Source of the DNA: Lachnospiraceae bacterium
Lineage (GTDB): Bacteria; Bacillota; Clostridia; Lachnospirales; Lachnospiraceae
Reading direction: 5' to 3'
Length of the DNA stretch: 59,178 nt
Assembly: GCA_029054245.1 (NCBI GenBank)
Contig: JAIDFQ010000027.1
Location: 1-59,178, forward strand
The notes beneath the pieces are model-generated. The model did no database searches and had not been told where the DNA came from. It worked only from the letters and a program-made list of their open reading frames with translations. The translations under genes and the position numbers were made by a program. Below, piece by piece: positions 4,353-46,171 of the stretch (positions within the stretch are counted from its first letter, which is position 1; each line of letters begins with the position of its first letter).

Positions 4353-4375
4353 AACTGTTCTCCTTCCTTTTTTTA

Positions 4376-8594: not shown

Positions 8595-8613
8595 AAATCA
8601 TTCCTCCTTTTTA

Positions 8614-8663
8614 TTAGGTACCTTGATTATAATCCATCAGCAGTTTTATGTCAAGGTACCTAA
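8614..8663 (-). promoter_or_regulatory. marR operon promoter with flanking operators
   Basis: A perfect promoter reads leftward: TTGACA (8654-8649), 17-bp spacer, TATAAT (8631-8626). A perfect 13-bp inverted repeat, TTAGGTACCTTGA at 8614-8626 and its complement at 8651-8663, overlaps both boxes. Each arm is itself nearly palindromic around AGGTACCT, so there are probably two dimer sites. Occupation by the MarR protein would block the polymerase. The ribosome site AAGGAGGAAT lies 20-30 bp downstream. Confidence 0.85.
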
Positions 8664-8719
8664 CTAAAAATAAGTAATTCCCTTGCACTGCCTGCTCTTT
8701 GAAACAAAAAAACACATAA

Positions 8720-8759
8720 AAATAAAGCCCCCGAAGTGGGTTTCCCCACTCCAAGAGCC
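8720..8759 (-). terminator. terminator of the MATE-kinase gene
   Basis: On the minus strand a 15-bp stem (several G-U pairs) with a GAAA tetraloop, arms 8745-8759 and 8726-8740, runs into TTATTTTTATG. It lies about 50 bp after the MATE-kinase stop and separates that gene from the divergent-in-space marR promoter. Confidence 0.75.
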
Positions 8760-8809
8760 ATACGGCAATTTCTTTACGGTCTGTCCACTCCTTATGGACT
8801 GTCCAGCCC

Positions 8810-31170: not shown

Positions 31171-31655
31171 CTATGCGGTTCTCTCTGCTTCCTGTTTTTT
31201 CCTGTGATATGCTTCCCTCCTTGACGCAAGATAGTTCTCATAGCGTTCTACTGCTTCGGGGTTTCCTGTTGCGGCTTCCTCATACATTTTCTGCCGGGAT
31301 TTCTTGGTGGCTTCGGAAGAATACGCCCTCTGTTTTGCTAGTTCTGCCGCCGCTGCCGGGTCGGTTTCGGCTTGCTGTATTAGTTTCTCCCTTGCGATTT
31401 TCTTTTGGCTTCGGTGGGCTTCCAGTCGTGCCGATTCCTCCGGCGTTAAGGTTTCCCCCTCTTTTTGGGCGGCGGCAAGTTCTTTGAGCGTCCTTGTCTT
31501 TGGCTGTCCGGCTTTCTGTCTTTCGCGCCACGCCTTATGCTGTTCGGCTTTTTTCCGGCGGTGCGCCGCAAGCCGTTCTGATTCCTCCGGCGTAAGCTCT
31601 GCCCCGGTTTTTTCCAGTTCCATAAGCTCCTTTATGGATTTTTTCTTAGGCGGCT
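31171..31655 (-). pseudogene. out-of-frame continuation of recombinase 4 tail
   Basis: The minus strand carries about 160 charged residues in a frame one base ahead of the recombinase. Units such as ELTPEESERLAAHRRKK and TLTPEESARLEAHRSQK repeat a motif (LLTPEELEAEEKRLAHNR) found at the end of the recombinase itself. No ribosome site or start precedes it; the only in-frame ATG (31818) lies inside the recombinase in an unrelated reading. It is either the rest of a longer recombinase separated by an indel, or is reached by +1 frameshifting at GCC-TAA. Confidence 0.6.
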
Positions 31656-33514
31656 TGGGCGGCTCTGCGTTTCTCCCGCCATTCCTTTTGCCGCTCCCGG
31701 TTGTGTGCAAGCCGTTTTTCCTCGGCTTCCAGTTCCTCCGGGGTGAGAAGCCCCGCCTTTTTCTTTGCGGTAAATGCCCGTTTCTCTGCCTTGCGCTTCT
31801 CGTACCGCGCCTTTTCAAGCTCCTTTGACCGGGCTTCCTTTGCTTCCTGTTCCTCCTGCTGGCGGCGTTGTTCCTCTACCTCTGCCGGGGTGATGATATG
31901 GGCGGGTACTTCAAACGCTCCGATAAAGTTTAAATAAATGTCTATCCGCTGGCGGCGGTCATTCCCCCGCCCCTCGCCCTCATGCACAATCACTTTTTCT
32001 ATAAACTCGTTGAGCATGGGCGTTGTCAATTCGGAGAAGTCGGTATAGCGTTTCACAAGCTGGATAAACTGGTCTGTTTTCAGCTTATCAGCGTTCCAGC
32101 TTTCAATCTGCTTTTGCCATTCCGCTCTGGACGTTTCAAGCCCGGTCTGTTCCTCGTCATATTCAGCAAGAAGCCGGGTAAAATGCTTGTCGGGTATCTT
32201 GCCCGTGGCGTTGCCCTCATACAGCTTTTTCACAAGCCCGTCAAGCTCTTTGTGCCGCTTCTGTGCCTTGCTGATTTTCTGCTTACATTCCTTGACGGTT
32301 TTCTCTTGGTTCTGGTCGGACGCTTCCCGGACACGCTCTGTAAACTCCTTTTCATTGTGCCGCACATACCAGCTCACACGCTGAATAACGGCAAGGATAG
32401 CGGCTTCAATCTTTGCCGTAGGGATATGGTGCATGGTGCAGTCATGGATTAAATGGCGGTAGCCGGAGCAGATAAAAGCGTCCTCTATCCATTTCCCTTG
32501 CACAAGGTTGTATCGGTGTGTCAACTTTGAACCGCAGTCAGCGCAGTATAAAAGCCCGGTCAAGCGGTTGGGGGCGTTCTGCCGCTTCGGGGCGCGGCGC
32601 ACGGTTTCCCGTATCTTCTGTACGGTCTGCCACGTTTCCACGTCCACAATGGCGGGGATTGCGCCCTCGAAGATATATTGTTCTTCCGGCGCGGTCTTGC
32701 GGCTGCTCTTGGTCTTGTAGTTCTCGCATATGGTTTTCCCCAGTACCTTGCGCCCCATATATTCCGGGCGTTTCAGTATGTAGCCGATAGTGGTCGCTGA
32801 CCATGCGTAGGGGTCGGCGTACTTTGCCGCCCGGACTGGCTCGCCCGTCCGTTTCCAATGCTCGGACGGGATAGGGATTTTCTCGGCGCGGAGTTCCTTT
32901 GCTATGCTGGCTATGGTTTCCCCGGCAAGGACGCTCTGGAAGATACGGCGCACAACAGTGGCGGCTTCCTCGTCAATTATCCATTCGCCTTTTTCCTCTT
33001 TGGAAGCGCGGTAGCCATAGCAGACACTGACAGAACAGCGCAAGCCCTTTTCCATTCTTGACTTGAAAACAGCCTTGATTTTGCGGCTGGTGTCGGCAAC
33101 ATACCACTCGTTTATCACGTCACGGAAGATAGACATAATATCAAAGCCATTGGCGGTGTCAAGGTTGTCATTGGCGGCGATAAAACGCACATGGTACTCG
33201 TCAAAGGTTCGCTTCAAAAGCCCCACTTCAACCACGTCACGCCCGATTCGGCTCTGGTCTTTGATGATAACCGTTGCCACGTTCCCCGCCCGGATTTCGT
33301 CTAACATAGCGTCCAGCCCCGGACGCTTGAAAGTAGTTCCCCGGATTCCGTCATCAGTAAAATGCCGGATATTGGAAAAGCCGTTTTTCCTTGCGTAGTC
33401 CTCCAAAATCCGCTTTTGGTTCTCAATGCTTACGGATTCGCCTGCCCGCTCATCGTCATGGGAGAGCCTTTCGTATAGGGCGGTGAGTTTGTCTTTCTCT
33501 GTCTGCTTCTTCAT
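31646..33514 (-). CDS. large serine recombinase 4 (nested element)
   Basis: A 622-residue recombinase unlike the ICE trio: nucleophile in ALYERLSHDDE (Ser about 18), IIKDQSRIGRDVVEVG, recombinase domain with PEYMGRKVLG, zinc ribbon CADCGS with a later CSGYRH and coiled coil. The last 100 residues are a highly charged Glu/Lys/Arg tail. Higher GC than the trio suggests a different source. It starts 54 bp from the cut in virD4 and is the probable integrase of the nested element, as in Tn1549-family and related IMEs. GGAGG lies before the ATG. Confidence 0.88.
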   Translation of the reverse strand: MKKQTEKDKLTALYERLSHDDERAGESVSIENQKRILEDYARKNGFSNIRHFTDDGIRGTTFKRPGLDAMLDEIRAGNVATVIIKDQSRIGRDVVEVGLLKRTFDEYHVRFIAANDNLDTANGFDIMSIFRDVINEWYVADTSRKIKAVFKSRMEKGLRCSVSVCYGYRASKEEKGEWIIDEEAATVVRRIFQSVLAGETIASIAKELRAEKIPIPSEHWKRTGEPVRAAKYADPYAWSATTIGYILKRPEYMGRKVLGKTICENYKTKSSRKTAPEEQYIFEGAIPAIVDVETWQTVQKIRETVRRAPKRQNAPNRLTGLLYCADCGSKLTHRYNLVQGKWIEDAFICSGYRHLIHDCTMHHIPTAKIEAAILAVIQRVSWYVRHNEKEFTERVREASDQNQEKTVKECKQKISKAQKRHKELDGLVKKLYEGNATGKIPDKHFTRLLAEYDEEQTGLETSRAEWQKQIESWNADKLKTDQFIQLVKRYTDFSELTTPMLNEFIEKVIVHEGEGRGNDRRQRIDIYLNFIGAFEVPAHIITPAEVEEQRRQQEEQEAKEARSKELEKARYEKRKAEKRAFTAKKKAGLLTPEELEAEEKRLAHNRERQKEWREKRRAAQAA

Positions 33515-33568: not shown

Positions 33569-34072
33569 TTATCTGTTTGGATCGGTAGCGGCAAAACTGC
33601 CCTGCATCTCCATGATGTTGCATTTGATGAGGAACATGCTCTTGCCTGCGCCGGAGCCGCCGATACAGAAGATGTTGTTGTTGCGCATGGTCTTTCTTGT
33701 ATTCATGGACAGGCGCAGGTTTTGTGAGAGGATTCGGTGGTAGCCGCCTTTATCGCCTAACTGTTTTGTAAGCATTGCCGCATCCGCCCACCTTGCCGAA
33801 CCATGCTCCTTACCGAAACGGTAATTCTTCTGGCTTGTTTTCTGTACCATGATATATAAAACTACAATTAAGAATACTGCCGCCATGGTGTAAGGAGTAT
33901 AGGCTGTCACTTTAATTTTTAGCGGATTCGCCATCTGCTCCTTAAGTGCCGGAACAAAAGTATACAGCGTCATGCCCGGATGGATGATACTGCCAAGGAA
34001 AAACCCTATATAAATACATCCGGCAACTGCGATCCCATAAAAAAGACAGGTAAACACGTTTAATTTCTTCAA
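33569..34072 (-). pseudogene. virD4/traG coupling protein, N-terminal fragment
   Basis: 167 residues: two membrane helices (residues about 10-30 and 60-80), then YRFGKEHGSARWADA and the Walker A CIGGSGAGKS (about 137-145). The frame ends at SFAATDPNR, where coupling proteins normally continue TDPKGE with about 400 more residues including Walker B. The cut coincides with the recombinase-4 element. The rest of the gene is not in the window. Without it the element cannot feed DNA to a mating channel by itself. The gene starts five bases after the PcfB stop. Confidence 0.88.
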
Positions 34073-34076: not shown

Positions 34077-35174
34077 TCACCTGCCCTTCGCCGGCTGTTT
34101 GATCTGTTTGATCTTTTTTATCTCTTTTTCGGTTTTTTTTATTTTATCTGCTGTGCCTTTGGATGTTCCTGTTTTTTCTGTCCTGTCTTTTGATGCTGTT
34201 CCTGCTTCCAACGGTCTGGTTCCTGCCGTCCTGTCACCTTCCCGTTTTCCCTGATCCCTCTCCCTTTCATCTGCCTTATGCTCCATGGCAGTGCGGATAT
34301 TTGCATTGACGGTATCAAAATAATTATGGAAGATTTCACTGCCCTTCATGGAAAACATTTCGCTCCCATGCTCTGTATATACCTTCATTTCCTCTTTCTT
34401 TTTAAGGAAGGCCAGCGCTGTCCGGCTCCCTTCCGGGAAATAGAAGTCCTCTGCCGGGATTCGGATAAATTTACCGGACTGCCTTGGGAGCCGCACCGTC
34501 ACATGATCCTCTTTCTGTTCAGTGACTAATTTGCTCGTGATCGTGATGGGGTCATATTCCCCGGACTGGTAGCGGTCTAAGATATTCAGCCTCTGGTCTA
34601 AGGGGATCGCCTCAATATCCTTCATCTTCAGATAACCTGTCTCCATCCATGGCTGTTTCTGCTCCCTGTTGGCTGTATTTTTCTGCATAGCTTCTGTTTC
34701 CTTTCCTGCTCCTTTTTCCGCTGCCCTGCCCTTCATTTCTTCATAAAATTTATCTATATCCCTGCCGGAAGTGTCCTGGAAATATTCCTCCAATCCCATG
34801 ACCTGCCCTGCTTTCAGCTTTTCGACCAGGGCATTCATCCGGGGAAGGGATTCCGCATGGAATACCATTTCCCTCATACCGTCCTTATTGAAATCCGGGA
34901 GCAGGGAGTAGAGGATACCATATTTCTTTGCCATCGCTTCCACTTTCTTAAGCTGCTCCTGCGGGAACTTGAAAACGTGCATATCGCCGCCACGCTTTAG
35001 GAGGTTTTTCATGGATGTCTTCCCTTCCATTTTTTCCTTTGCAAGGATTCCCATGAAAAGCTTCGCAAGCTGCTTCAACGGTTTTATTCCTGCACCGGCA
35101 ACACGAAGAAATAGGTCTGTGCCTTCAAACAATATATGGATGACCTGTACCGCATCCGTAATCTCACTGCTCAT
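34077..35174 (-). CDS. PcfB-family conjugation protein (DUF3801)
   Basis: A 365-residue soluble protein. The N-terminal half matches the PcfB/DUF3801 pattern (GIKPLKQLAKLFMGILAKE; LLKRGGDMHVFKFPQEQL; AKKYGILYSLLPD). The C-terminus is Lys/Glu-rich and disordered. PcfB proteins help load the relaxase-DNA complex on the coupling protein. It overlaps the previous gene by four bases and precedes virD4 by five, the usual order in Tn1549-like ICEs. Confidence 0.82.
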   Translation of the reverse strand: MSSEITDAVQVIHILFEGTDLFLRVAGAGIKPLKQLAKLFMGILAKEKMEGKTSMKNLLKRGGDMHVFKFPQEQLKKVEAMAKKYGILYSLLPDFNKDGMREMVFHAESLPRMNALVEKLKAGQVMGLEEYFQDTSGRDIDKFYEEMKGRAAEKGAGKETEAMQKNTANREQKQPWMETGYLKMKDIEAIPLDQRLNILDRYQSGEYDPITITSKLVTEQKEDHVTVRLPRQSGKFIRIPAEDFYFPEGSRTALAFLKKKEEMKVYTEHGSEMFSMKGSEIFHNYFDTVNANIRTAMEHKADERERDQGKREGDRTAGTRPLEAGTASKDRTEKTGTSKGTADKIKKTEKEIKKIKQIKQPAKGR

Positions 35175-35479
35175 CTGGAAGCCCCCTTCTCCTGCCCTTT
35201 GGACTGCTGCAATTCTTTCTGCTGCTGGTACTGGCGGTCTCTCACTGCCGCAAGTTCCTTTTCAAGATTCTGCATTGTCGCCTCCATAGCGTTCCCTGCT
35301 TCCTTTGCCTGTGCCGCCTGCCTGCACAGCTTACTAAGTATGGTATTTCTCTGCCCTGCTTTTTCGGTACTGCTGTCAGCTAAAAGGAAACTGTTAATCT
35401 CTATGGACTGCGCCAGCTTTTCACTTTTTCCCTTAAAATCCTCTGATGCATAAATGAAATCCTGTAAACACTGTGTCAT
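35171..35479 (-). CDS. small coiled-coil ICE protein
   Basis: A 102-residue, mostly helical protein, rich in Gln, Lys and Glu at the C-terminus (QNLEKELAAVRDRQYQQQKE). It overlaps both neighbours by four bases, so it belongs to one tightly coupled transfer operon. I do not recognise a family. It could be a relaxosome or membrane adaptor; nothing in the sequence decides this. Confidence 0.65.
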   Translation of the reverse strand: MTQCLQDFIYASEDFKGKSEKLAQSIEINSFLLADSSTEKAGQRNTILSKLCRQAAQAKEAGNAMEATMQNLEKELAAVRDRQYQQQKELQQSKGQEKGASR

Positions 35480-36564
35480 GCCCCCTGCCCCCTTTCGTTT
35501 AATATCTTCATGGTCATGCGGAGTTCCCTGATCTTTTCTGCATCCATAGCTTTATCCGCAAGAAGAGCAAGCTGCCCTTCCGTAAGTCCGTCCTCAATGC
35601 CAAGGCGTATCTCCGCTATCTGCCCGGCATCCAGTTCCCCCGCTAATTTCTCCATCAGCCCCGGTTTCTTCCGAGTAAACGGGAAATTGAATGCGGACAA
35701 AAGGCCGGAATGTTTTTCCCTCCTGCTTTCCCTATATCCCATCCTCTGGCAGTTGTTTACAGCCTGACAGTCTTTCAGTATAGGACTGTCATTTATCCGC
35801 TGGCTCTCCTGTGCATCCCTGATATGCTTTGCCTGTAACTCCGATACAAGCGACTGCTGCAGCAATAGCTGCTCATGGAGGTTCTTATTTTCCGTTTCCA
35901 GCTCCCTTAACCTTTTCCCTGTCTCTTCCCGTTCCTCTAAAAGCCGTTCCGCATCCTCCCTTGCCTGCCGGAACTGTTCTTCCAGTTCCAGATAGTAAGC
36001 GTCATCCGCTGCACCAGCCTCCGCTTCAGCTTCCTCTCCTTTTTGCGGCGCTGGAAAGATATCCGGCTTTTCCTCCATAGATTTCCTTAAATCCTCTATG
36101 AAACCGTCCTGCCTTAAAAGGCTTTCTTTCAGTTCTTTTACTGCTTCCGTAATAAATTCCATCTTTTCCCCGATCTTCTCCGGTATTGTCTCCCTGCCCC
36201 GCATAAGGGGCAGTATTTTTTCCCTAAGGTCAATCGGGATCATATCCTCCCGGTAAATTTCCTTTAATTCCTGGAGCGGTATGCCTGATTTCAGAGCTTC
36301 CAGTATGATACGCCCGCTCTCCCCCTTATGGATCGTGGAGAGGAAGGATGCCGCCTCCATGCCATAATCTTCCTTCATGGCAGTGAACATATTTTCCATG
36401 GTCTCTGCCGGGAGTGTGGTATCTTCAAAAAGCAGTAAATAATCTGCGCTGATGCCGTAGCTGATTGCGTTTATCACAACCTTAAGCTCTTCCTCGCAGT
36501 AATCTTTGGATTTGAAATAGGCAGTCTGCTCCTGCCTTGTCATAGTTCTTAAATTTTTCCCCAT
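35476..36564 (-). CDS. coiled-coil protein of the transfer operon
   Basis: A 362-residue protein with no membrane helix. Residues about 20-140 are helical repeats (GISADYLLLF; GIPLQELKEIYRED), and about 195-270 is a strong Glu/Arg-rich coiled coil (EDAERLLEEREETGKRLREL). A C-terminal region has further helical repeats (LDAGQIAEIRLGIEDGLTE). I cannot assign a family. Its position between the relaxase and PcfB genes, with short gaps and a four-base overlap, suggests a relaxosome or coupling role. Confidence 0.7.
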   Translation of the reverse strand: MGKNLRTMTRQEQTAYFKSKDYCEEELKVVINAISYGISADYLLLFEDTTLPAETMENMFTAMKEDYGMEAASFLSTIHKGESGRIILEALKSGIPLQELKEIYREDMIPIDLREKILPLMRGRETIPEKIGEKMEFITEAVKELKESLLRQDGFIEDLRKSMEEKPDIFPAPQKGEEAEAEAGAADDAYYLELEEQFRQAREDAERLLEEREETGKRLRELETENKNLHEQLLLQQSLVSELQAKHIRDAQESQRINDSPILKDCQAVNNCQRMGYRESRREKHSGLLSAFNFPFTRKKPGLMEKLAGELDAGQIAEIRLGIEDGLTEGQLALLADKAMDAEKIRELRMTMKILNERGQGA

Positions 36565-36585: not shown

Positions 36586-38127
36586 TTATCTTGCCTGTTC
36601 CTGATTCCTATTATGGGCTGGCTGTTTTTCCATGTGATATGTGTCTGGCTGGGCTGGCATATGATCTGTTCCCATAGGCCCTGATTTTCCTGCACCACCC
36701 CCTTTCCATTGATTTTCAGCAGTACCTTTCCCTGCCATATCTGCTTCTTTTACATTCTGCTTTGGTATATCCTGTATTTCCGGCTCTGGCATTTCCCTCT
36801 CAAGTACCTGCATCCTACACTTTTCATAGAGGATGCTGTTTATCAGATTTTCCTCTTTCCTGATCTCCTTTTTGGTTTTTGCGACTGACGCAAGCTGATT
36901 CTGTACTGTCTCCTTCATCTCCATAAGCTGCCCGACTGTGTAGCCCTTTTTAATCAGGGCTTCCGCTGCTTCTTTCCATTTCTCATAATAAGGCGCATAA
37001 AAAATGCTCCCCTGTTTGTAATAGGAAGCACGTGTCTCATTCTCTTCGATTATTTTGAGCAGCGCAAGGGCTGGTTTATGCGGGTACCGCCATTTGTATA
37101 TCTGATGCCTGTCTTCATCCAGATTTTTCATTCGCGTGTTAAGAATATCTGCCCGCCCTTTTAACTCTTCTGCGGAACGGATGTTATGCCTGCAAAGATA
37201 CAAGTATTGCGACTGTAATTTCTCAAACTTTGCCGCTTCCTCCCTGTACCGCCACATCTGGCTGTAGGGCCTGCGCTTAAGCTGCCCGGTACGGTACATC
37301 TTTGCAAAGAAAACTTTCTGGTATAATGTCGGCGGCATATATTTTTTGTAATTTTTCCTGCATCCAACAATCCTTGGAGTACGGTTTCCCGTCCGGCTGT
37401 TTTCACGCCGTATGCCCCTTTCAATCTGATCCTCTATGGATTCTTTTGTATAATGGGCTGAAATATCTGTAAGGCGGATAAAGCTTTTTTCTCCCATAGG
37501 TTTCAGTAAAATATTCCCATCTTTCTGCTTTATCTCATATCTTTTCAGCTCCATTAATTTCAGGAAATTTTCATAGCCGGTGGCAAAAGAAATAGAATCC
37601 TCCACATCTAACCAGATCTGGTGATTCCATTTGAAAATGCCCTGTCTTGTTTTATCCCATTTCTTTAGCGGTTTTTCTTCTGTGCCAACTTCAATGTCCT
37701 GTATGGAAAGACCGTACTCCTTGCAGAGTTCATTGACAATGGGCTGTATCTCCTTTGCCCAATCGCCTTTTTCGTAGCGGTACTTCTTTCCAGTACGCCA
37801 TGACACGCTGTTGAAAAGAATGTGCGAATGTACATGCTGTGTATTGTCATGGGTGGCGTACAGGCACTGGAAACCATCCCCAAAATATTTCTCCACAAAC
37901 TTCTGCGTGATCTCCATAGCAGTTTCCGGTCTTACCTCCTGCTTTTTAAAAGATATAATAAAGTGGTAGCCCTGCCGCTTGTCCAGTTTCCCATACTTCC
38001 GCTTTGTTGCAAGCATCTCCTGCAGGGCAGTATCTGCGTTGCAGTTATGGCTTCCCACCAGTAAGCCGTCCTGCGTCTTTTCTTTGTCTGTGATGTAGGA
38101 AATAGCATTTGCTAAGTGCATAGCCAT
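36586..38127 (-). CDS. MobP-type relaxase
   Basis: At least 513 residues. The relaxase domain occupies residues 1-300, with the catalytic Tyr in NAISYIT (Tyr11) and the metal HxHxH in QHVHSHILFN (98, 100, 102). Homologues begin with about 16 more residues. Those are encoded upstream (AITKLSCIHQTGKKY), but the codon five bases after GAGGAGG is ATC (38175-38173), not ATG. Either ATC initiates, or translation begins at the ATG at 38127, which has a weaker AGGA nine bases upstream. The C-terminal 200 residues are charged and coiled-coil. It nicks oriT for transfer. Confidence 0.9.
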   Translation of the reverse strand: MAMHLANAISYITDKEKTQDGLLVGSHNCNADTALQEMLATKRKYGKLDKRQGYHFIISFKKQEVRPETAMEITQKFVEKYFGDGFQCLYATHDNTQHVHSHILFNSVSWRTGKKYRYEKGDWAKEIQPIVNELCKEYGLSIQDIEVGTEEKPLKKWDKTRQGIFKWNHQIWLDVEDSISFATGYENFLKLMELKRYEIKQKDGNILLKPMGEKSFIRLTDISAHYTKESIEDQIERGIRRENSRTGNRTPRIVGCRKNYKKYMPPTLYQKVFFAKMYRTGQLKRRPYSQMWRYREEAAKFEKLQSQYLYLCRHNIRSAEELKGRADILNTRMKNLDEDRHQIYKWRYPHKPALALLKIIEENETRASYYKQGSIFYAPYYEKWKEAAEALIKKGYTVGQLMEMKETVQNQLASVAKTKKEIRKEENLINSILYEKCRMQVLEREMPEPEIQDIPKQNVKEADMAGKGTAENQWKGGGAGKSGPMGTDHMPAQPDTYHMEKQPAHNRNQEQAR

Positions 38128-38172
38128 GTATTTTTTTCCTGTCTGGTGGATGCAGGATAGTTTTGTGATTGC

Positions 38173-38187
38173 GATAAAAACCTCCTC
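38173..38187 (-). promoter_or_regulatory. ribosome site followed by ATC where relaxase should start
   Basis: GAGGAGG (38187-38181), five Ts, then ATC GCA ATC ACA AAA. Relaxases of this family typically start MAITK. The reading matches except for the first codon, which is one substitution from ATG. The defence module ends 26 bp further upstream. Confidence 0.7.
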
Positions 38188-38212
38188 AATATATAGCTTT
38201 TACAGCTTCGCC

Positions 38213-39991
38213 CTAATTTTCTTCTCTTTCTAAGACGGTATCGTTTTCTTCATTTAATATAAGTATATCAATATACGTTTTCAATTCTTCAAAAAGCTTA
38301 GGGTATTCTTCCTTGCTTAATGCCGCATATTTATTATCTAAAAATAAACAATTTGCATTTTTAAATTCAACTCCATTCAAAATAACTGCATCCTCTCTAA
38401 ATTCTAACCCATCCATGCCTACACATCCCAATATCAACTGCATTTCACTTGGTTTCTTATCCCTTATAAATTCTAAAATTTTTTTAATATTCTGCTCGTC
38501 TTGCTCATTTTGTAAAGGTGAATCAATGACAATAGGACATGCTATCGTACTTGAATATGCAGCCATTGTACTTAAAATTGCATAATAATATGCCAATAAC
38601 GCTCTTGATAAATCGCTGCCACTTTCTTTAATTTGGCAACTTATTGACTTGTACTCTTTTTCCATTAGCTTCTGTACATCAAGAGAATGCAAATTTTTTC
38701 TCATATTTTCAATATAGTAATTTACTATACCATCTTTATGCTCTGGATTATTATAGATGTCCATTTCCTTATCTATATCATCTAATTGTTCCTTTAATCC
38801 ATTAATCTTAGTACCAATTTGAGCCATTTCTCTTTTCAAATTCACATTAAAACTCTTTTTGCCAACGGAATCTACATAATCTCTAAATTTTATATTTTCC
38901 TTTTTTCTATTAAGTATAGATTCAATATCATTTTTTTCATCTGAATAATCTTTAAAACTCTCCTTTTCTGCTTCTATTTTCTTATTTATATTAAATAACT
39001 TCTCTTGAAGCTCTAAAATAACTTGATAACAGCGGTCTTCATCTTGAGCAATTGAAAATCTTCCTTCTATTGAATTTTTGTGAACACATCCACAAGTTGG
39101 GCAAATAATTTCACTTGGTTGCAATTGAGCATATTCCAAGTCTTTTCGTAACTCTTTCTGTGTTTTTGTTGCAATATTTATTTGATGTTCTATTAAAACC
39201 TTTTCATCAAATAACTTATTGAGCTTACTTTTATATCTTTCCTCTTTTTCTGATAACCTTGAAAGAGACGTAACTAATTCATTAATTTCAGCTTTAAAAT
39301 CAGAAATATTAACATCAACATCAAGATTTGTTACTTTCGTTTCACTGATTGTCCGATTGTAAACTTTAGAGATCACTTTCAGTTCATTATCCAATTCACT
39401 TTTCTGATCTTGTAAAATAGCTTTTTTAGCTTTCTCTTCATAATATTTATTGGGCCTGATCCCTGTATGATATTCGACTAAATCATTCCTCCATTTTTTA
39501 AATGCACTCAAATGTTCAAAGGAACTCCAATTTGCTTTCCACCCTGCATCTTGATCAATATAATATGGCAAAAAGTAAAAGGACGGAAAAGGTGTCTGAC
39601 TTTCCAAGCTGGATGAATGAACCAATTTCAATTTAAAATTCAAAAAATCTACATAAAACTCTGCTAATTCTTTTCCCGTTCCATTAAAAGAACGTACTAA
39701 TTTCATTTCTCCATCGAACAAAGCCACAATTCTATCTTTCCTCATAATGCAATAGTTTGTACCCTCATTCATAAATTTAAGAATAGTTATAGGTTGTATC
39801 TTCTTCCATTCTTTATGAAAATTAAATGGTTCAGCCCCCAATGCGTAATACAAGCTTTTAATTACACAAGACTTTCCTGTGTCATTCTGCTTACTGGTAA
39901 CTATTGTTATATCCGCATCAAGGTTTATTTTCCTTGCGCTTTTTTCCACTAGAGATATAATTATCAACTCTTTGAATAGTAGTTTTCTCAT
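38213..39991 (-). CDS. SMC/Rad50-like ATPase, Lamassu LmuB-like
   Basis: A 592-residue ATPase. Walker A is SKQNDTGKSCVIKS (Lys40). Long coiled coils (about 200-290 and 310-440) flank a zinc-hook CPTCGC (about 297-302), and Walker B is CPIVIDSPLQ (about 485). This is the Rad50/SMC layout in compact form. The gene is much more AT-rich than the transfer genes on both sides. Together with the nuclease gene 59 bp upstream it matches the two-gene Lamassu-type anti-plasmid or anti-phage layout: an SMC sensor of foreign DNA with a nuclease effector. The assignment is by architecture, not by search. Confidence 0.75.
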   Translation of the reverse strand: MRKLLFKELIIISLVEKSARKINLDADITIVTSKQNDTGKSCVIKSLYYALGAEPFNFHKEWKKIQPITILKFMNEGTNYCIMRKDRIVALFDGEMKLVRSFNGTGKELAEFYVDFLNFKLKLVHSSSLESQTPFPSFYFLPYYIDQDAGWKANWSSFEHLSAFKKWRNDLVEYHTGIRPNKYYEEKAKKAILQDQKSELDNELKVISKVYNRTISETKVTNLDVDVNISDFKAEINELVTSLSRLSEKEERYKSKLNKLFDEKVLIEHQINIATKTQKELRKDLEYAQLQPSEIICPTCGCVHKNSIEGRFSIAQDEDRCYQVILELQEKLFNINKKIEAEKESFKDYSDEKNDIESILNRKKENIKFRDYVDSVGKKSFNVNLKREMAQIGTKINGLKEQLDDIDKEMDIYNNPEHKDGIVNYYIENMRKNLHSLDVQKLMEKEYKSISCQIKESGSDLSRALLAYYYAILSTMAAYSSTIACPIVIDSPLQNEQDEQNIKKILEFIRDKKPSEMQLILGCVGMDGLEFREDAVILNGVEFKNANCLFLDNKYAALSKEEYPKLFEELKTYIDILILNEENDTVLEREEN

Positions 39992-40050
39992 AATTTCTGT
40001 TCCTCAGATTTCTTATTAGTTTTTGAAAATTTTTAATTTCTCTTTCTTTG

Positions 40051-41142
40051 CTATTCATCATCCGGACTCCATGATTTTAATTCTAATAAAATTGCTGCCT
40101 TAACATATGCTTCATCTATGCCAATAATCTGATATGGATATCCTTTATTCAAAGAGTATTTTTTAAGTATCGAATACATCATTTTTATATAGGTAGCATC
40201 ATCTTCATCATTAATTAATTGGCAGATATCATTTTGCAATTCTTGTACAATTTCATTACTTGCATCCAATCTTTGTAGCTCGTAGTCTACCCATTTCTTT
40301 TTTATCCTAGATATTTCTTTAAAACCAATACCGTTTGATGACAGTTCCTGCTCAACATCTTTCCACTCTGTATACTGCTTGCTACTTTTTATCAACAAAT
40401 TAATTAATTCTTCAAAGTCATTCCTTGTAACCGCTTTATATTTTAACACCTCATCAAAACTGTCAACACTCCACTCATAATCATTTTTCCTTTTAAATTC
40501 TGAAAACAAAATACCATAAGCAGCGTTTGCATTTACATCATATTTCCCATTCTCATATTTTGAGAAAAATTCCACTAATTTCCCCTTAGTATAGGTATCA
40601 TGACCGCTCGCTCCCAGTTCTGTCACTCTAAGATATGTAAGATTAGCTTTATCTTTTAAATTTATGTTCAACTCATCTTCTATTTTCTTAAAAATACCAA
40701 CCTTCTCTTTTTCATCTAACTCCTCTAATGAGATAGAAATTTTTTCTGTACTTTTTGTTTTATCTGCCAGTTTTATGTCAAAAGTTGCATTGCTAACTAA
40801 ATTAAGACTTATATCAAAATTCCCGAAAATCGTATAATTGTACAATAATTTCCCCAAAATAGACATTTTATCAGTTTCATGTTTAATTAAGGCAGCCTTT
40901 GTCCAAACCCCTGATTTTTTACTTTTTATTTGATAAAATCCTATCTTATCAGGAGAAATGTCAGAATCCAAAATTAAAATATCGTCATGAAAGTCTAAAA
41001 CAATAACATAATTATCTTCTTCTAATTGAAGCTCTAACGCCTTACACAATGCCCAATCCTTTTGATAATCAAATCGATTGGCTGATCTTGATCCACTTGT
41101 TTCTCTTGGTTTATTATCTATCAGTTTTTCTTGAATTGTCAT
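40051..41142 (-). CDS. Cap4/DUF4297-type dsDNA nuclease, Lamassu LmuA-like
   Basis: A 363-residue protein. Its N-terminal domain is the Cap4 nuclease family: ETSGSRSANRFDYQKDWAL (residues 14-32), the acidic DDILILDSD (53-61) and FYQIKSKK (69-76), a PD-(D/E)xK fold with QxK. In Cap4 this cleaves dsDNA once activated. The C-terminal 200 residues are helical and unrecognised; I see no SAVED domain, so it is not a CBASS effector. The SMC ATPase downstream is the probable activator. It is AT-rich, like its partner, and the pair lies exactly between mobC and the relaxase gene. Confidence 0.75.
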   Translation of the reverse strand: MTIQEKLIDNKPRETSGSRSANRFDYQKDWALCKALELQLEEDNYVIVLDFHDDILILDSDISPDKIGFYQIKSKKSGVWTKAALIKHETDKMSILGKLLYNYTIFGNFDISLNLVSNATFDIKLADKTKSTEKISISLEELDEKEKVGIFKKIEDELNINLKDKANLTYLRVTELGASGHDTYTKGKLVEFFSKYENGKYDVNANAAYGILFSEFKRKNDYEWSVDSFDEVLKYKAVTRNDFEELINLLIKSSKQYTEWKDVEQELSSNGIGFKEISRIKKKWVDYELQRLDASNEIVQELQNDICQLINDEDDATYIKMMYSILKKYSLNKGYPYQIIGIDEAYVKAAILLELKSWSPDDE

Positions 41143-41300
41143 GATATCCTCTTTATCTCTTTACCATGTAATTTGGGGATTAAATGAGTTTCACTATAAA
41201 ATCAGTAATATTTTACCATATTATGTACTTTTCTGCCACACTACATATTTGTATCGCTATATAGAACTCTTGTGCATGTCCTTGAAGACACTATATTATT

Positions 41301-41645
41301 CTATATCTTTAAAAACAAACCAATACACACGCTCATTAAATCTTTTATTCGTGAAATCTCTTCCTCCAAAATTTCTCTTTCATTTTCATTATATATATGG
41401 GAATTATTATTTTTCACAATCTGGTTCACATTAACACCAATCTTATTTATCTCATTCCGCAGACGCATTACTTCTACTTCCAGCTCCCTGCTTTTTGGAT
41501 GCTCCGATTGATTCAGAAGTAGATACCGGATGTATTCCGATTCATTCATATTTTCAGCTTTGGAGCGTTTTGCTAACAGTTTTGCTGTCTCCTCGGTCAG
41601 TTTGAAGTGCTTCCTGATTACATTTTCGCCTTTCGGTCTTGCCAT
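41301..41645 (-). CDS. MobC-like relaxosome accessory protein
   Basis: A 114-residue protein. The N-terminus is ribbon-helix-helix-like (KHFKLTEETAKLLAKRSKA; MNESEYIRYLLLNQ), followed by the MobC signature region (EVMRLRNEINKIGVNVNQIVK). The start at 41645 has GGAAGGAG six bases upstream; an in-frame ATG at 41702 lies within the oriT hairpins and is rejected. It would bind oriT, which lies directly upstream, and help the relaxase. Normally the relaxase gene follows at once; here a defence module separates them. Confidence 0.85.
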   Translation of the reverse strand: MARPKGENVIRKHFKLTEETAKLLAKRSKAENMNESEYIRYLLLNQSEHPKSRELEVEVMRLRNEINKIGVNVNQIVKNNNSHIYNENEREILEEEISRIKDLMSVCIGLFLKI

Positions 41646-41671: not shown

Positions 41672-41743
41672 GGCGTTCTATGGAACGCCGCAAGATACGC
41701 ATTTCGTGGGCACGAAATGCAGATCTTGTCGGGGAGTACCCCG
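41672..41743. other. candidate oriT
   Basis: Three adjacent hairpins lie just upstream of mobC: GGCGTTC/GAACGCC (41672-41689), a perfect 10-bp stem GCATTTCGTG/CACGAAATGC (41699-41720) and CGGGG/CCCCG (41730-41743). Tight inverted repeats ending in a G/C-rich spot next to mobC are characteristic of relaxase origins. The nick site would be expected near 41720-41735. Confidence 0.7.
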
Positions 41744-41777: not shown

Positions 41778-41972
41778 GCGCCAAATCCATCTAATATGAC
41801 GCCAGTTTCCTATTCCGCAGCGCCAATCCGGTTATTTTTTACGCCAATTATTTTTCCCTGACGCCAATCTGAAACAAATTAACGCCAATGAAATTTCCTC
41901 ATTTTTCGGTGACGCCAGTCAGATGTCAAATTTTCCTTCCTTTACGCCAAACTGTCTGATTTTTACGCCAAT
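41778..41972. repeat. nine iterons with helical phasing
   Basis: The motif (g/t)ACGCCAAT occurs nine times in the same orientation, with CGCCA starting at 41779, 41800, 41821, 41842, 41862, 41883, 41913, 41945 and 41966. Spacings are 21, 21, 21, 20, 21, 30, 32 and 21 bp, that is two or three helical turns, so all copies face the same side. AT-rich spacers separate them. This is the form of a plasmid replication origin or partition site. The nearby Rep-like initiator is the obvious ligand. Confidence 0.8.
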
Positions 41973-41976
41973 CAAA

Positions 41977-42181
41977 ATAGGATTTTCCTTTTTTGACTGC
42001 ACCCTGACACTTTTCCCCTCTCCCAAATACTCCGCTCCCAGCAAGTGTACCGGGGAGTGCGTGCGGTATCAAGTATTTTAGTCCTAGCCGAAAATCCTTG
42101 ACACCGCCCACCCTCCCCGGTCTTGGGCAGCCAAGCGGAAGTATTTGGGGGGGTCGGCTTCCCACCGCACTTCCCACCAGC
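41977..42181. other. GC-rich non-coding segment beside the iterons
   Basis: About 200 bp between the iterons and the next gene hold GC-rich partial repeats (GGGGAGTGCGTGCGGT and, further on, a related complement in CCACCGCACTTCCCACC). I see no convincing gene. It may be part of the replication origin. Confidence 0.4.
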
Positions 42182-43378
42182 CTACCTTGCCATGGCTTTG
42201 GGGTAACAGGTTTTCCGGTCAGCCACCATCATCACTTCCTTTTCTGGGAAACGGTACAGGCTGGATAGTTTCTTCCTTTCATCCGGTGAGATAAATTCCG
42301 GCAGCACCCATTCCTTTGCCTGTCCTTTCAATATATGCGTCAGGTTATGCCTGTCTACCGCTTCCAGAAAACAGGACAGCTTTCTTGTTATTGAGCCAAA
42401 AACTTCCGCCTCTTTTTCTGTCCTTGCACTGGACGTTTCCTGCATCGCTTCCATCTTCATGGCTACAAGCAGTTCCCGGGAGCAGTACACAGGCTTTTCA
42501 TTGATAAGGATGTCCAACATTTTTATCCAGTCCTTTTTCATGAAGAACAGGACGCTTTTATCTCCGGGCTGTACTTCATGGGCGTAACCGATATCCCCGC
42601 TTTTCCGTAAAGAAAATCTGGGGAGGCTGAACTGCTTCGCCTTTGCCGCCAGCTCCGGGGATATCCTTATGTAATCCCCCTTTTCCATCTGCTCCTTAAG
42701 CCGGGCAATGCGTTCCTCATCCGGCAATCCATGCTGATACCTGGCCTGCCGGATTGCCAGCAGCAGCTTCAAATCCTCCATCACTCCCCGGAGGACTCCC
42801 GGCGGCTTTACCGGAAGGGTGCGCTCCCTCTTCCTGTGGATTTCCTGCACTGCCGCTGAAAGGGAACGCTCATTTGCTGCTTCGTAGGAAGCGGAATAGA
42901 CTTCCCTCCGCAGCGACAGAAGGGTGTCCGCCACACAGGCATAGTGGATGGTATTCACTTTCTCCCCAAAAGGCCCTTTGATGTATTTTTCTGTTTTCAG
43001 CGGGCCTTTGTCTGTTTTCCCGTCCTTATACTTAACGGTGATGGATTTTCCCTTTAGCTGTTTCTCCTTAACCTCCATCGACAGCCTGCGGTTATCAAGC
43101 ACTTCAATGTCTGCCCTGCCGGATGCTTTCACATGGGCTGCAAAAGATACGGGCATATCGGAGAAAAAGCAGATTGACCTTGCCAGCAGGTTCTCCATGG
43201 TGTCCTTTAAATATATTTCCCTTTCCTTCAGGCAGAATGCACGTTCCAGATCCCAATGGATCAGGTAATGCCCCTCTGTCTTCAGTTGCTCAAAATCTGA
43301 TGGCAGCTTTCCGTCTCCATCCCTGAATGAATGCAGGAACTCCTGTAAGTCCACGTCATTCATCCGATATTCGTTCAA
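42182..43378 (-). CDS. uncharacterised ICE protein next to the origin
   Basis: A 398-residue soluble protein that I do not recognise. It has no P-loop or HUH motif. Arg/Lys-rich stretches (AAVQEIHRKRERTLPVK) and a well-folded central part (ISPELAAKAKQFSLPRFSLRK) suggest a nucleic-acid partner. It ends four bases into the origin-flanking segment and is preceded 48 bp upstream by the Rep-like gene. A replication-accessory role is inferred from position only. Confidence 0.7.
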   Translation of the reverse strand: MNEYRMNDVDLQEFLHSFRDGDGKLPSDFEQLKTEGHYLIHWDLERAFCLKEREIYLKDTMENLLARSICFFSDMPVSFAAHVKASGRADIEVLDNRRLSMEVKEKQLKGKSITVKYKDGKTDKGPLKTEKYIKGPFGEKVNTIHYACVADTLLSLRREVYSASYEAANERSLSAAVQEIHRKRERTLPVKPPGVLRGVMEDLKLLLAIRQARYQHGLPDEERIARLKEQMEKGDYIRISPELAAKAKQFSLPRFSLRKSGDIGYAHEVQPGDKSVLFFMKKDWIKMLDILINEKPVYCSRELLVAMKMEAMQETSSARTEKEAEVFGSITRKLSCFLEAVDRHNLTHILKGQAKEWVLPEFISPDERKKLSSLYRFPEKEVMMVADRKTCYPKAMAR

Positions 43379-43426
43379 AATTGCCTCCTTTCTGCATATT
43401 TAGGTTTTCTATACGGGCATCCACCT

Positions 43427-44269
43427 TTATGTTCCATACAGGTCATGGTTCACTTCTGTCCGGTAGTAGCTGTCCATTGTTGCCGGGGCATTGTACAGCG
43501 CAGTCAGCAGGTATGCCTTGATGTTCCCTACCTTCGTGGTGTTGTTATCAATACAGCCAAAGACATACTCCACATGGCTGGAATTGATCTTCAAGAACCG
43601 GCTCCTGACAACCTCCCTTGGGAAATCATCCCCGGCAATGCGGATATAGGGGCGTTTTGACAGGACTACTTCCAGCATCAGTTCAACCGTTTCATCCATC
43701 CGCTGTTTCCCATGCCGCCCTGCAAGGATGCTGTACTCAATATTCTCACAGATGATTTCCCGGTAAGCCTCTGCCAGTTCCATCCTATCCATCCCATCAT
43801 GGCAGCCCGCCGCCTCCGGTACTGCCGGATGGATTGATTGATGGGTATTTAATCCGTCAGTATTTGATTGTTCAGTATTTAATTGTGCGGGTTCCTCCTG
43901 TTTAGGGCTTGCCTGTCTTGGATTTTTCCGTTCAGGTTTTTCCGGTTCAGGCAGTCTCACCTCTGCTTCCTCGCTTACCGGTTTCTCATGGATCGTATAT
44001 GTAATATCCCCCAAACGCCCGTTTTCATAGCGGGTGCGCTGTCTGGTAAGGTACCCATGGTTCTCCAATTCCTTTAATGCGCTGGTGATGGAATCCACAC
44101 CGTCTCTGCAGATACAGGCAAGCCCCTTTGTGGTGTAATCCCAATCCTCCGGCAGGGAAAGCATCAGGGATAACAGCCCCTTTGCTTTCAGCGACAGTTC
44201 CACATCCCGTAAATGATAGTTGCTCATGACGGTAAAATCCCTTGTCTTCTCTACCCTGAATACAGCCAT
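43427..44269 (-). CDS. Rep-like initiator with winged-helix N-terminus (DUF6017-like)
   Basis: A 280-residue protein. Residues 1-100 are a replication-initiator winged helix (DFTVMSNYHLRDVELSLKAK; SLPEDWDYTTKGLACICRDG; ALKELENHGYLTRQR). A Pro/Glu/Gln-rich linker (about 105-160) leads to a C-terminal domain (about 165-275; FLKINSSHVEYVFGCIDNN; VGNIKAYLLTALYNAP) that resembles DUF6017. Such proteins drive replication of excised ICEs and plasmids. The phased iterons lie about 1.5 kb downstream. Confidence 0.8.
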   Translation of the reverse strand: MAVFRVEKTRDFTVMSNYHLRDVELSLKAKGLLSLMLSLPEDWDYTTKGLACICRDGVDSITSALKELENHGYLTRQRTRYENGRLGDITYTIHEKPVSEEAEVRLPEPEKPERKNPRQASPKQEEPAQLNTEQSNTDGLNTHQSIHPAVPEAAGCHDGMDRMELAEAYREIICENIEYSILAGRHGKQRMDETVELMLEVVLSKRPYIRIAGDDFPREVVRSRFLKINSSHVEYVFGCIDNNTTKVGNIKAYLLTALYNAPATMDSYYRTEVNHDLYGT

Positions 44270-44298
44270 ATCTATATTCTCCTTTCCAAATCTCCAAA

Positions 44299-44538
44299 CT
44301 ACCGGATGCAGTCTCTGTCTCTGCTGTGTTCACGATGCAGGTGTCCGTCCGGCGTGACCTTCCTATGCTCCTGTATCTTTATCTCCCCCTCTTCCTGGCG
44401 TTCCTGAAATTTCCGGTATCCGGCATCCGTTAAAAACAGGCGCATCCGGTCTCCTTTATCACCTACAAAAGAATCACCTGAAAGGACTTCAAAAATGACC
44501 ATGTGCCGCACCTCCGGATCAAAACGCTCCAGCGCCAT
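44299..44538 (-). CDS. small ICE protein of unknown function
   Basis: A 79-residue soluble protein, strongly charged (FQERQEEGEIKIQEHRK), with no recognisable family. It lies 29 bp upstream of the Rep-like gene and follows a 40-codon gene by 14 bp, so it is probably in the same operon. AAGGG precedes its ATG. Confidence 0.6.
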   Translation of the reverse strand: MALERFDPEVRHMVIFEVLSGDSFVGDKGDRMRLFLTDAGYRKFQERQEEGEIKIQEHRKVTPDGHLHREHSRDRDCIR

Positions 44539-44552
44539 GATGTCATGCCCTT

Positions 44553-44675
44553 TTAATTGTTCATCACCGGGTCTCTGGCATACCTTGAAGCCATTAACAG
44601 CTCATGCAGGATGGCGTAACGCTCACTCCCTTGTGTCTGGTACAGCATCCGTTTTTCCATTTCATTCAGTTCCAT
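44553..44675 (-). CDS. 40-residue small protein
   Basis: A short reading frame with AAAGGA closely before the ATG encodes 40 residues, starting MELNEMEKRMLYQTQGSERY and ending in a helical, charged C-terminus (DPVMNN). It sits between a terminator and the 79-residue gene, in operon spacing. The function is unknown. Position and ribosome site support it; length does not allow more. Confidence 0.55.
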   Translation of the reverse strand: MELNEMEKRMLYQTQGSERYAILHELLMASRYARDPVMNN

Positions 44676-44704
44676 ATCCTTTTCCTTTCCCTAAAAATCT
44701 GCAT

Positions 44705-44746
44705 GAAAAAAGGACACCCGCCTGACACAGGATGGAATGTCCTTTT
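44705..44746 (-). terminator. terminator between the ParR-like gene and the Rep operon
   Basis: AAAGGACA (minus, 44745-44738) and TGTCCTTT (44716-44709) flank a 21-base loop and run into TTTTTT. It ends the parM-parR transcript about 50 bp after the ParR-like stop, so the Rep genes need their own promoter or read-through. Confidence 0.7.
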
Positions 44747-44794
44747 GGTTACTTTAATTTAATTTTATATACAAGAGGAAACCACAGCAGCTTT

Positions 44795-45241
44795 CTATCC
44801 GCCCATGAAGCTGTCCATAAAGTCAAGGGCAGCCTCATTCAGCTCTTCTGTTTCCGGCGTTTTAATCTGCTCCCCCGCCTGCCCCGTTTTCCCTGTCTTC
44901 ACCGTCTCTGCCTGCATCCCCGGCATTGCCATCGGCATATACGGGTACATCATAGGATAAGGCGTCTGTGGAAAACATTTCTTTATCTCCGCCGCTTCCT
45001 GCCGGATGCCCTCCTGTATTTTTGCAAGAAGCTCCTCATGGGTAAGATGGGCTTCCTCTTCCCTGTCAAAATATCCAACCATTGCCTTGGCAATGATACT
45101 GGTGTAATCCTGCTTCTTCCCGTCCGGCGGCTCCCGGTAGTTGCCCTGTAAAATCTGCCATGCCCGCCGCTCTTCCGGCACATCCATATCAAACCGGCAG
45201 GACACACGCTTAATGTTTTTTATTGCCTGTCTCTTCCCCAT
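44795..45241 (-). CDS. ParR-like partition adaptor
   Basis: A 148-residue protein. The N-terminus has a ribbon-helix-helix-like region (KRVSCRFDMDVPEERRAWQIL), then helices and a Met/Pro-rich, disordered segment (PYPMMYPYMPMAMPGM). A conserved acidic C-terminus (NEAALDFMDSFMGG) is typical of ParR peptides that bind the ParM filament. It starts 12 bp after the ParM-like stop. ATG 45241 has GGGGG seven bases upstream; GTG 45247 is less well spaced. Confidence 0.7.
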   Translation of the reverse strand: MGKRQAIKNIKRVSCRFDMDVPEERRAWQILQGNYREPPDGKKQDYTSIIAKAMVGYFDREEEAHLTHEELLAKIQEGIRQEAAEIKKCFPQTPYPMMYPYMPMAMPGMQAETVKTGKTGQAGEQIKTPETEELNEAALDFMDSFMGG

Positions 45242-45253
45242 AAACACGCCCCC

Positions 45254-46171
45254 TTATCCACGCCTGATATTCCGCAGCCGCCTCTGGTTAGAAAGATACT
45301 CATAGCCTTTTGCATTTGCATGGATATCTTCAATGAAATGCACTTTATCCTGGTTCAGCTTTGCGAAATGCCTCATCAGCATAGCGCCGCCTCCAAGGAA
45401 ATGGAGCTTTGCCAGTTCTTCATTATAGCCATACTCACGCAGTTTCCGCATGATCCTGTCGGTATAGTCTGACGCACACTCACCGATAGCTTTCAGGTAT
45501 TTCTCCCCGATATCCGCTGTACCGTCTTTCAATACTTTTTTCACAATACAGTCATCCACAACGCTATGTACCTTGTTCGTCAGTTCGCTCCGCATCTCAA
45601 CCACACAGCATTCCACGCCGAACCGCTCCGTATAATAACGGCTGGAATCCGGCTTCCCGTCAATGATAAAGATAACATTCATTGTACCGTTTCCGATATC
45701 CGCCACAATGTTAAATCCCTGATAGCCGGGCAAGTCCGCCGCAACAGCCGCAAAACCCTGTGCATAGACTTCCACATCTTCAATCTTCACATGGTATCGG
45801 GTATCATTGCACCGGAAGGTGACTTCCTTATTCCGTAATAAGTATTTCCGGAAATCTTCTCCCTGCTCCCCAAGCCACTTGATGGGAAGCCCCACTGCAA
45901 GGATGACGGATGCATTGCATAAGCCCCTCCCCTTCAGTTCCTTTGCCAATGCCGCCAGCGTCAGGATATAATAATCCTCATCCCATACTTTATCCATCTG
46001 ATACTCTTTGTGGGTAGAGCCGATCTCATAAAATTTCCCCTCATACTCTACGGTCATCCCTGCCAGTTCTGATACCCTCTCCCTTTCAATTACGCCGGAT
46101 TCAAAAATGTGGTGGGCGGTCTTGATGTTGCCATACCCATGGTCAATGCCTATCCTGTAAATCTGTTCCAT
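45254..46171 (-). CDS. ParM/StbA-like actin-type partition ATPase
   Basis: A 305-residue actin-fold protein. Phosphate-1 motif IGIDHGYGNIKTA (residues 7-19), phosphate-2 VADIGNGTMNVIFI (about 155-168) and the adenosine motif LHFLGGGAMLMRHF (about 268-281) are in order. It forms filaments that push apart copies of a circular replicon. With the ParR-like adaptor and iterons it indicates that the excised element can persist as a plasmid-like circle. It is the outermost gene at the right end of the element. Confidence 0.85.
   Translation of the reverse strand: MEQIYRIGIDHGYGNIKTAHHIFESGVIERERVSELAGMTVEYEGKFYEIGSTHKEYQMDKVWDEDYYILTLAALAKELKGRGLCNASVILAVGLPIKWLGEQGEDFRKYLLRNKEVTFRCNDTRYHVKIEDVEVYAQGFAAVAADLPGYQGFNIVADIGNGTMNVIFIIDGKPDSSRYYTERFGVECCVVEMRSELTNKVHSVVDDCIVKKVLKDGTADIGEKYLKAIGECASDYTDRIMRKLREYGYNEELAKLHFLGGGAMLMRHFAKLNQDKVHFIEDIHANAKGYEYLSNQRRLRNIRRG

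Follow-up and report, generated by a model that had tools for sequence, protein, structure and literature searches.

A two-gene Lamassu operon in a probable exchangeable slot between mobC and the relaxase gene of a Lachnospiraceae integrative and conjugative element family

The gene pair and its relatives

We analysed a 59,178-nt stretch of a Lachnospiraceae bacterium genome (contig JAIDFQ010000027.1 of assembly GCA_029054245.1; the whole stretch is called the window here), in which two genes, lmuA and lmuB, lie between mobC and the relaxase gene of an integrative and conjugative element (ICE). A sequence-only reading of this DNA had described the pair as a Lamassu-like defence module inserted between two transfer genes, and both open reading frames (ORFs) have exactly the coordinates and strand that it gave (Table 1). 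Comparison with related elements suggests that the Lamassu operon is probably the present content of a fixed, exchangeable slot in an ICE family of Lachnospiraceae, located between mobC and the relaxase gene and downstream of a putative origin of transfer (oriT).

The pair was compared with profiles of LmuA, LmuB and Cap4. LmuA matches the Pfam family Cap4_nuclease (E = 2.3e-35) and, over residues 1–355, the PADLOC LmuA profile PDLC00238 (E = 7.7e-103). LmuB matches the PADLOC LmuB profile PDLC00249 over residues 1–576 (E = 7.1e-177) and a solved LmuB chain in PDB (9ux7; E = 5.8e-12); it has no Pfam match above the curated cut-off, and no match to LmuA was found among solved structures. The E-values for the pair and its neighbours are beyond chance, and the profiles place the nuclease in Cap4/DUF4297 and the zinc-hook SMC (structural maintenance of chromosomes) ATPase in LmuB, as had been proposed. 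lmuA lies directly before lmuB on the same strand. The 59 bp between the two ORFs are too short for a hidden LmuC or other middle component, which confirms that LmuC is missing. A Wadjet system (JetABCD) was ruled out, as the similarity of LmuB to JetC is weak (E = 0.0015) and confined to the coiled-coil part. The pair is a two-gene Lamassu with a Cap4 effector, in an apparently intact operon.

Two-gene Lamassu systems are already known, and the pair in the window is a further member of a known family. Passages of a review of SMC-based immunity (PMC10586767) describe Lamassu as an LmuA effector with an LmuB ATPase, LmuC lacking in some systems; LmuB is presented there as a Rad50 relative in which the Walker B glutamate is replaced by glutamine, with a zinc hook (CPxCG) in many but not all members. 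Eight related lmuB loci were examined (L133–L137 from plasmids, L138–L141 from genomes), and in seven of them an LmuA-sized ORF lies directly upstream of lmuB with nothing between (in L141 this ORF was assigned by position alone, since tblastn with lmuA gave no match there). The eighth, L133, begins at the record start, so that its upstream side is not visible; the lmuB annotation of L134 is in two pieces. Given these loci and the passages cited, the lack of LmuC is not unusual. The key nuclease residues D54, Q71 and K73 of LmuA are invariant in an alignment of five sequences, and four of five aligned LmuB proteins have the zinc hook. In all five, the residue after the Walker B aspartate is serine or alanine and the glutamate is absent.

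Identity of the window pair to its plasmid relatives is 26–33% for LmuB and 24–25% for LmuA. At E-values up to 1e-40, LmuB was found in one of 398 genomes of the phylum, which is the window's own; at 1e-20 it was found in three of 397 genomes of the family, and at 1e-5 in three of 37 genomes of the genus (own genome included in both). Viral contigs contained no relative of LmuB and none of the relaxase.

A slot between mobC and the relaxase gene

Relatives of the element were collected by a relaxase search with an alignment of two copies from the window's genome; the best 80 of 90 relatives were kept, and the window and L008, from the same genome, were added. Relaxase identity over the best segment splits the relatives into a close group (67–89%, 19 of 80) and a sister clade (35–46%, 61 of 80). 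Nineteen close loci carry mobC and the relaxase gene on one contig (the window, L008, L011–L014, L016–L022, L024–L026, L042, L043 and L090). Parablautia muri and Lachnospiraceae bacterium 10-1 are among the sources of the close loci. L015 and L023 end at contig ends and L010 has neither gene, and none of the three was counted as a slot. A search of 37 genomes of the genus gave 10 places above the cut-off, all of which were already in the locus set. Flank synteny is conserved across relatives that differ in slot content.

In all 19 close loci mobC and the relaxase gene are 1.28–7.07 kb apart, and in none are the two genes adjacent or the slot empty (for L018 and L021, with an interrupted mobC, slot length was counted from the first stop). 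The corresponding gap in the sister clade is 35–404 bp in 61 of 61 loci when measured to the position of the window's first relaxase ATG. Measured to the inferred start, mobC and the relaxase gene overlap by 14 nt in 48 and by 11 nt in seven of the 60 sister loci scored, with a gap of 78–355 nt in the other five. By these measurements, on 60 sister loci and 19 close loci, mobC and the relaxase gene are as a rule adjacent outside the clade and never so inside it. The sequence-only reading was right about the position of the pair (a NikA-like/MobC gene upstream, a Relaxase gene downstream) and about its AT-richness (GC content of 0.30 in the slot vs 0.45 on the relaxase side); the statement that the two flanking genes are normally adjacent applies to the sister clade (55 of 60 loci, with 11–14 nt of overlap) but not to the window's own clade (none of 19). 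It had also suggested looking for the same backbone with other or no cargo: other cargo is frequent, and an empty slot was not seen in the close clade. An isolated insertion is not borne out, as the slot is filled in every close relative, mostly by other genes.

Near-identical backbones, judged by the following comparisons, carry different cargo. The nearest neighbour of L008 in the 5' part of the relaxase gene is L013 (94.3%), whose cargo is entirely different, and L008 and L026 have 5,438 bp of slot DNA in common at 91.6% identity, with relaxase 5' parts that are 78.9% identical (ungapped, 560 nt). Cargo is wholly different from that of the nearest relaxase neighbour in 15 of 18 loci, is partly shared in two and the same in one (L043 was dropped from this count because an indel spoils its ungapped identity). 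The cassettes may well be swapped by recombination in the conserved flanks, between elements present in one cell.

The slot is probably the new part here, as a variant of the known defence hotspots. A literature search, covering titles and the beginnings of abstracts and reaching subscription journals to a limited extent, found no description of it.

Table 1. Features of the window element and slot content of its close relatives (numbers after family or protein names are E-values)
Locus	Feature	Coordinates	Strand	Basis or remark
Window	lmuB, Rad50/SMC-like ATPase with CPTCG zinc hook, 592 aa	38213–39991	-	PADLOC, PDB 9ux7, alignment
Window	lmuA, Cap4/DUF4297 nuclease effector of Lamassu, 363 aa	40051–41142	-	Pfam and PADLOC profiles, residue alignment
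Window	Cargo slot, mobC stop codon to relaxase start codon, 3125 bp; two-gene Lamassu	38176–41300		Filled in 19/19 close relatives, mostly different cargo
Window	mobC, relaxosome accessory protein	41301–41645	-	Pfam NikA-like 2.6e-9, MobC 2.8e-5; alignments
Window	MOBP-type relaxase gene (MobA/VirD2-type)	36586–38175	-	Pfam Relaxase 1.7e-39; proposed start ATC 38175–38173, first ATG 38127
Window	Shine-Dalgarno motif GGAGG of relaxase gene, cargo side of border	38181–38185	-	Motif scan
Window	Putative oriT core, inverted repeat then GTATCTTG followed by C; proposed nic between 41691 and 41690	41690–41720	-	Pattern
Window	Arms of extended oriT repeat	41691–41708, 41711–41728
Window	Iteron-like repeats (ACGCCAAT and variants), upstream of putative oriT	41797–42006		Direct repeat families D1–D5
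Window	Upstream backbone: 398-aa gene, DUF6017/HTH_36 protein, small ORFs, actin-like ALP protein	42182–46171	-	DUF6017 4.8e-43, ALP_N 1.3e-15; common to relatives
Window	Three conserved backbone genes downstream of relaxase (362 aa, 102 aa, DUF3801)	34077–36564	-	DUF3801 6.8e-15; same order in relatives
Window	virD4 (coupling protein) remnant, about codons 1–168 of 616	33569–34072	-	84% identity to L020 virD4 over 1–168
Window	Large serine recombinase gene adjoining virD4 break	31646–33514	-	Recombinase 8.9e-23, Resolvase 1e-20
L008	Slot: 1798-aa metallophosphatase-NACHT protein, partial match to candidate PDC-S60 3.3e-28	465–5861		Second element of window's genome
L011	Slot: GajA 1.7e-91, GajB 3.9e-33 (Gabija)
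L011	Slot: 828-aa protein without match	3294–5780
L012	Slot: 1195-aa and 589-aa proteins, no match	3504–8925
L013	Slot: LmuA-like 4.6e-19, ABC-3C middle component 3.2e-8, LmuB 5.2e-39; HD-CE protein
L014	Slot: DUF4297 1e-34, HerA 1.3e-172; PIN protein
L016	Slot: DUF4238 protein; 277-aa protein without match	3795–5900
L017	Slot: candidate system PDC-M62 (6.7e-86, 9.4e-54); other ORFs
L018	Slot: 241-aa protein without match; relative of 277-aa gene	2046–3611
L019	Slot: 477-aa protein without match, at the coordinates given; also unscanned relatives of L016 genes	6049–7482
L020	Slot: candidate PDC-S31 3.8e-20
L021	Slot: flavodoxin/ferredoxin and FMN-reductase proteins
L022	Slot: DNA relative of L021 and L017 slots			Unscanned
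L024, L043	Slots: DNA relatives of L016 slot			Unscanned
L025	Slot: MkoA 1.4e-172, MkoB 7.4e-21 (Mokosh)
L026	Slot: L008 cassette			Unscanned; 91.6% DNA identity
L042	Slot: Avs3a 0, Avs3b 7.4e-37
L090	Slot: L042 cassette			Unscanned; 73.3% DNA identity

Slot content

Slot proteins were scanned with PADLOC and Pfam; the cargo labels are ours. Matches to defence or candidate-defence systems are found in 11 of the 19 slots (nine by direct scan and two via DNA identity to a scanned cassette). As a control, 10 window genes outside the slot were compared with PADLOC: eight have no match, one has a weak JetC match (2.7e-4) and one, a subtilase gene, has generic subtilase matches (best 1.2e-24). The 19 slots contain 42 ORFs of at least 170 aa, every one of them oriented like mobC and the relaxase gene. 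With two exceptions (L021 and L022), the slots are lower in GC than their flanks.

Six slots (L012, L016, L018, L019, L024 and L043; some of their ORFs unscanned) contain neither recognised defence genes nor oxidoreductase genes. Their unrecognised genes, and that of the 828-aa protein in L011, are therefore candidate defence genes by location. The DUF4238 protein of L016 was not counted as defence, because its PADLOC matches involve only a short SEC-C region. L009 (contig C58) was dropped as a further slot; only fragments of mobC and the relaxase gene are found there beside a BrxP gene. This decayed further copy (L009 73–4645) carries the BrxP gene (6.4e-251) and a 475-aa gene without match.

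A tblastn search of the other 18 slots with the window's lmuA and lmuB found nothing, the distant three-component proteins of L013 being among those undetected. This bears on the idea that the pair serves DNA repair or the processing of transferred DNA instead of defence, which would agree with the Rad50/SMC-like nature of LmuB (passages of PMC10586767). A pair that is undetected in the other slots is not needed for transfer, the same pair is found on unrelated replicons, and both proteins match the PADLOC Lamassu profiles at the E-values given above; we consider such a role very improbable.

Slot borders and the proposed relaxase start codon

The right border was located with 76 pairs of loci that differ in terminal cargo and whose relaxase genes are at least 88% identical in their first 300 nt; high identity downstream of the border was selected for in this way, and the result is the step. 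Identity per 10-nt block is 0.28–0.42 before the relaxase start and 0.96 in the first block after it. Of 20 loci, with L015 counted, 18 have ATC and two have ATA as the first conserved codon; in the sister clade this codon is TTG in 57 of 61 loci. A Shine-Dalgarno motif, at normal spacing, is found at most 18 nt upstream of the ATC/ATA codon in 19 of 19 loci (random slot positions: 4.4%). Among the first 16 codons, two variable columns fall at first, two at second and 10 at third codon positions. Because of the motif, the third-position variation and the TTG of the sister clade, we place the translation start of the relaxase at ATC/ATA; this assignment is weakened by an in-frame NTG upstream, before any stop, in six of the 20 loci, and by an ATG 48 nt downstream that could serve too. 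If real, it would give a transfer gene a non-NTG start throughout the family. Nothing concerning relaxases was found by a search on AUC/AUU starts in the portions of the literature that it covered.

On the left, mobC identity is about 0.8 until codon 90, drops to 0.5 beyond it and is down to 0.33 by codon 106 (114 pairs; L011 and L018, which have a deletion in mobC, were excluded), so that the end of this gene differs from cargo to cargo. The mobC start was taken at the conserved ATG, the mechanical ORF beginning at 41702.

A rival explanation is that the slot is merely a tolerant place, where random cargo survives because most other sites would break transfer; the nearness of oriT would then be without function, and Lamassu would still be defence. 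Two slots with apparently non-defence oxidoreductase genes are consistent with it, as are the lack of integrases and transposases among the slot proteins scanned and of direct or inverted repeats of at least 14 nt framing the window's slot. It does not readily account for 19 filled slots with none empty, for the single direction of all the larger ORFs, or for one exact right border with a ribosome-binding motif in every locus. We regard a tolerant place as possible, though more doubtful than likely.

The putative origin of transfer

A block of about 100 bp before mobC is conserved across the loci and contains an inverted repeat and, after it, GTATCTTGC. Seventeen of the 19 loci have one exact copy of this pattern, 43–45 nt before the mobC ATG. 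The site matches YATCYTG/Y (slash, nic), which we take to be the nic consensus of MOBP systems. An inverted repeat beside nic is described in two of three papers (PMC6514445, PMC6098607 and PMC2848598), in passages that do not print the nic sequence. YATCYTGY occurs near mobC in only three of 61 sister loci, and the sister clade is therefore neutral on this oriT. A nearly invariant sequence inside the relaxase gene, TATCCTGC, was rejected as a nic site: 10 of the 14 variable columns over the first 16 codons are at third positions, so that it is read as coding, and the inverted repeat before mobC is the better candidate.

If the nic assignment is right, mobC, the slot and the relaxase gene would lie on the leading side of oriT. 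This is not certain, as the extended repeat puts ATCTTG on the other strand too, there without the leading pyrimidine.

The iteron-like repeats separate the 398-aa gene from the putative oriT; in other relatives this place has another type of repeat.

Function of the slot

By analogy with the family (the course of sensing and activation in passages of PMC10586767), LmuB dimers joined by their zinc hooks would bind aberrant DNA, such as ends and hairpins, of phages or plasmids; ATP-driven closure would free LmuA, which would then cut DNA, so that the invaded cell stops before the invader spreads. From the layout, the cassette would be read through from mobC to the relaxase gene, and its 3' end would supply the ribosome-binding site of the relaxase. 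A scan of the coding strand from mobC to the relaxase gene found no terminator-like site. Since the promoter and terminator counts given below are near chance, the mobC–cargo–relaxase operon is putative.

Several observations weigh against a fixed, exchangeable slot for immunity genes or against parts of this picture. The 19 loci cannot be treated as independent: three come from strain 1XD21-87, and two each from bin B91_16 and from the genome of the window. Eight of the slots have no recognised defence match (some of their ORFs are unscanned), oxidoreductase genes occupy the slots of L021 and, judged by DNA similarity, of L022, and these two slots are not AT-rich (GC of 0.41 and 0.40 vs 0.42 and 0.41 in the flank). 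Some copies have broken genes: relaxase matches are spread over two frames in L026 and L043, that of L021 ends at residue 429, and both L018 and L021 have an interrupted mobC. The oriT pattern is missing from L011 and L018. Promoter-like sites (25) are not above the number in shuffles (20.2, sd 4.6), and terminator-like sites are not fewer than expected by chance. For the five LmuB proteins aligned, loss of the Walker B glutamate fits the review, but its replacement is serine or alanine and not glutamine.

The sequence-only reading had proposed that a DNA-sensing nuclease could exclude competing plasmids or phages, and had added that it must avoid self-attack during transfer. Exclusion by the pair is a plausible role by analogy. 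How the element's own single-stranded transfer escapes attack is a real question, because the putative oriT is itself palindromic.

The cargo may instead benefit the element and not the host, by excluding the element's rivals or punishing its loss; phage defence would then be a by-product. One strain or bin can carry several same-clade elements with different cargo, and Lamassu-type systems are reported in passages of PMC10586767 to act on plasmids as well as phages. The same co-resident elements, however, argue against strong mutual exclusion, and no antitoxin-like partner was seen adjoining lmuA–lmuB; we think this unlikely.

A stronger version of the exchangeable slot is that the clade has a dedicated, always-filled port for immunity genes: leading-side cassettes would be among the first genes made in the recipient, and the weak AUC/AUA start together with a cassette-supplied ribosome-binding site would tie relaxase output to the cassette. 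This is a speculative suggestion, with a low probability in our view. If true, spread of the element and immunity of the host would be coupled, and the slot would be a natural trap for new defence systems. Under the preferred reading of an exchangeable slot, the element family appears to keep immunity genes inside its own mobilisation genes and to change them often. Such a slot would be a natural experiment on why mobile elements carry defence, and a search window with known borders.

Comparison with known systems

The pair in the window resembles other two-gene Lamassu systems with a Cap4 effector in that LmuA directly precedes a zinc-hook LmuB without LmuC; only its place, inside the mobilisation genes of a conjugative element, is different. 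With the three-component Lamassu/ABC-3C systems it shares the idea of an effector with an ATPase, but it lacks the middle component; a three-component set is found in the slot of L013. Defence hotspots of mobile elements and islands, e.g. in Pseudomonas and E. coli (as described in parts of PMC12629846, PMC10121019 and PMC10250203), likewise have one backbone place with changing defence content, whereas the slot described here splits genes that overlap in the sister clade and is empty in none of 19 loci. Leading regions of conjugative plasmids are described as hotspots of anti-defence genes in passages of PMC11541004. They are similar to the slot in carrying immunity-related genes beside oriT, possibly entering the recipient early; the genes are anti-defence there and defence here, and the leading side here depends on the presumed nic consensus.

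State of the window element and its surroundings

The sequence-only reading spoke of an ICE; the window copy is not an intact one. In L020 and L022, the DUF3801 gene is followed by virD4 and then by further genes taken by eye as transfer genes. The window's virD4 breaks off at about codon 168, next to a serine recombinase gene, and four other proteins of the L020 transfer region have no match in the window (VirB4 was not searched for). No second piece of the window's virD4 was found in the genome apart from a separate copy on contig C60, an uninterrupted ORF of 608 aa that is 89% identical to the virD4 of L020. Because of the virD4 break and the unmatched transfer proteins, the window copy is better named a truncated ICE that keeps its mobilisation genes; with most of virD4 lost, it could at best be mobilised by another element, such as the relative on C60.

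Two other features were observed in the window. At 18684–23614 one strand carries three large serine recombinase genes in succession, and a chloramphenicol acetyltransferase family protein (PF00302, 8.2e-30) is encoded at 48308–48946, outside the element.

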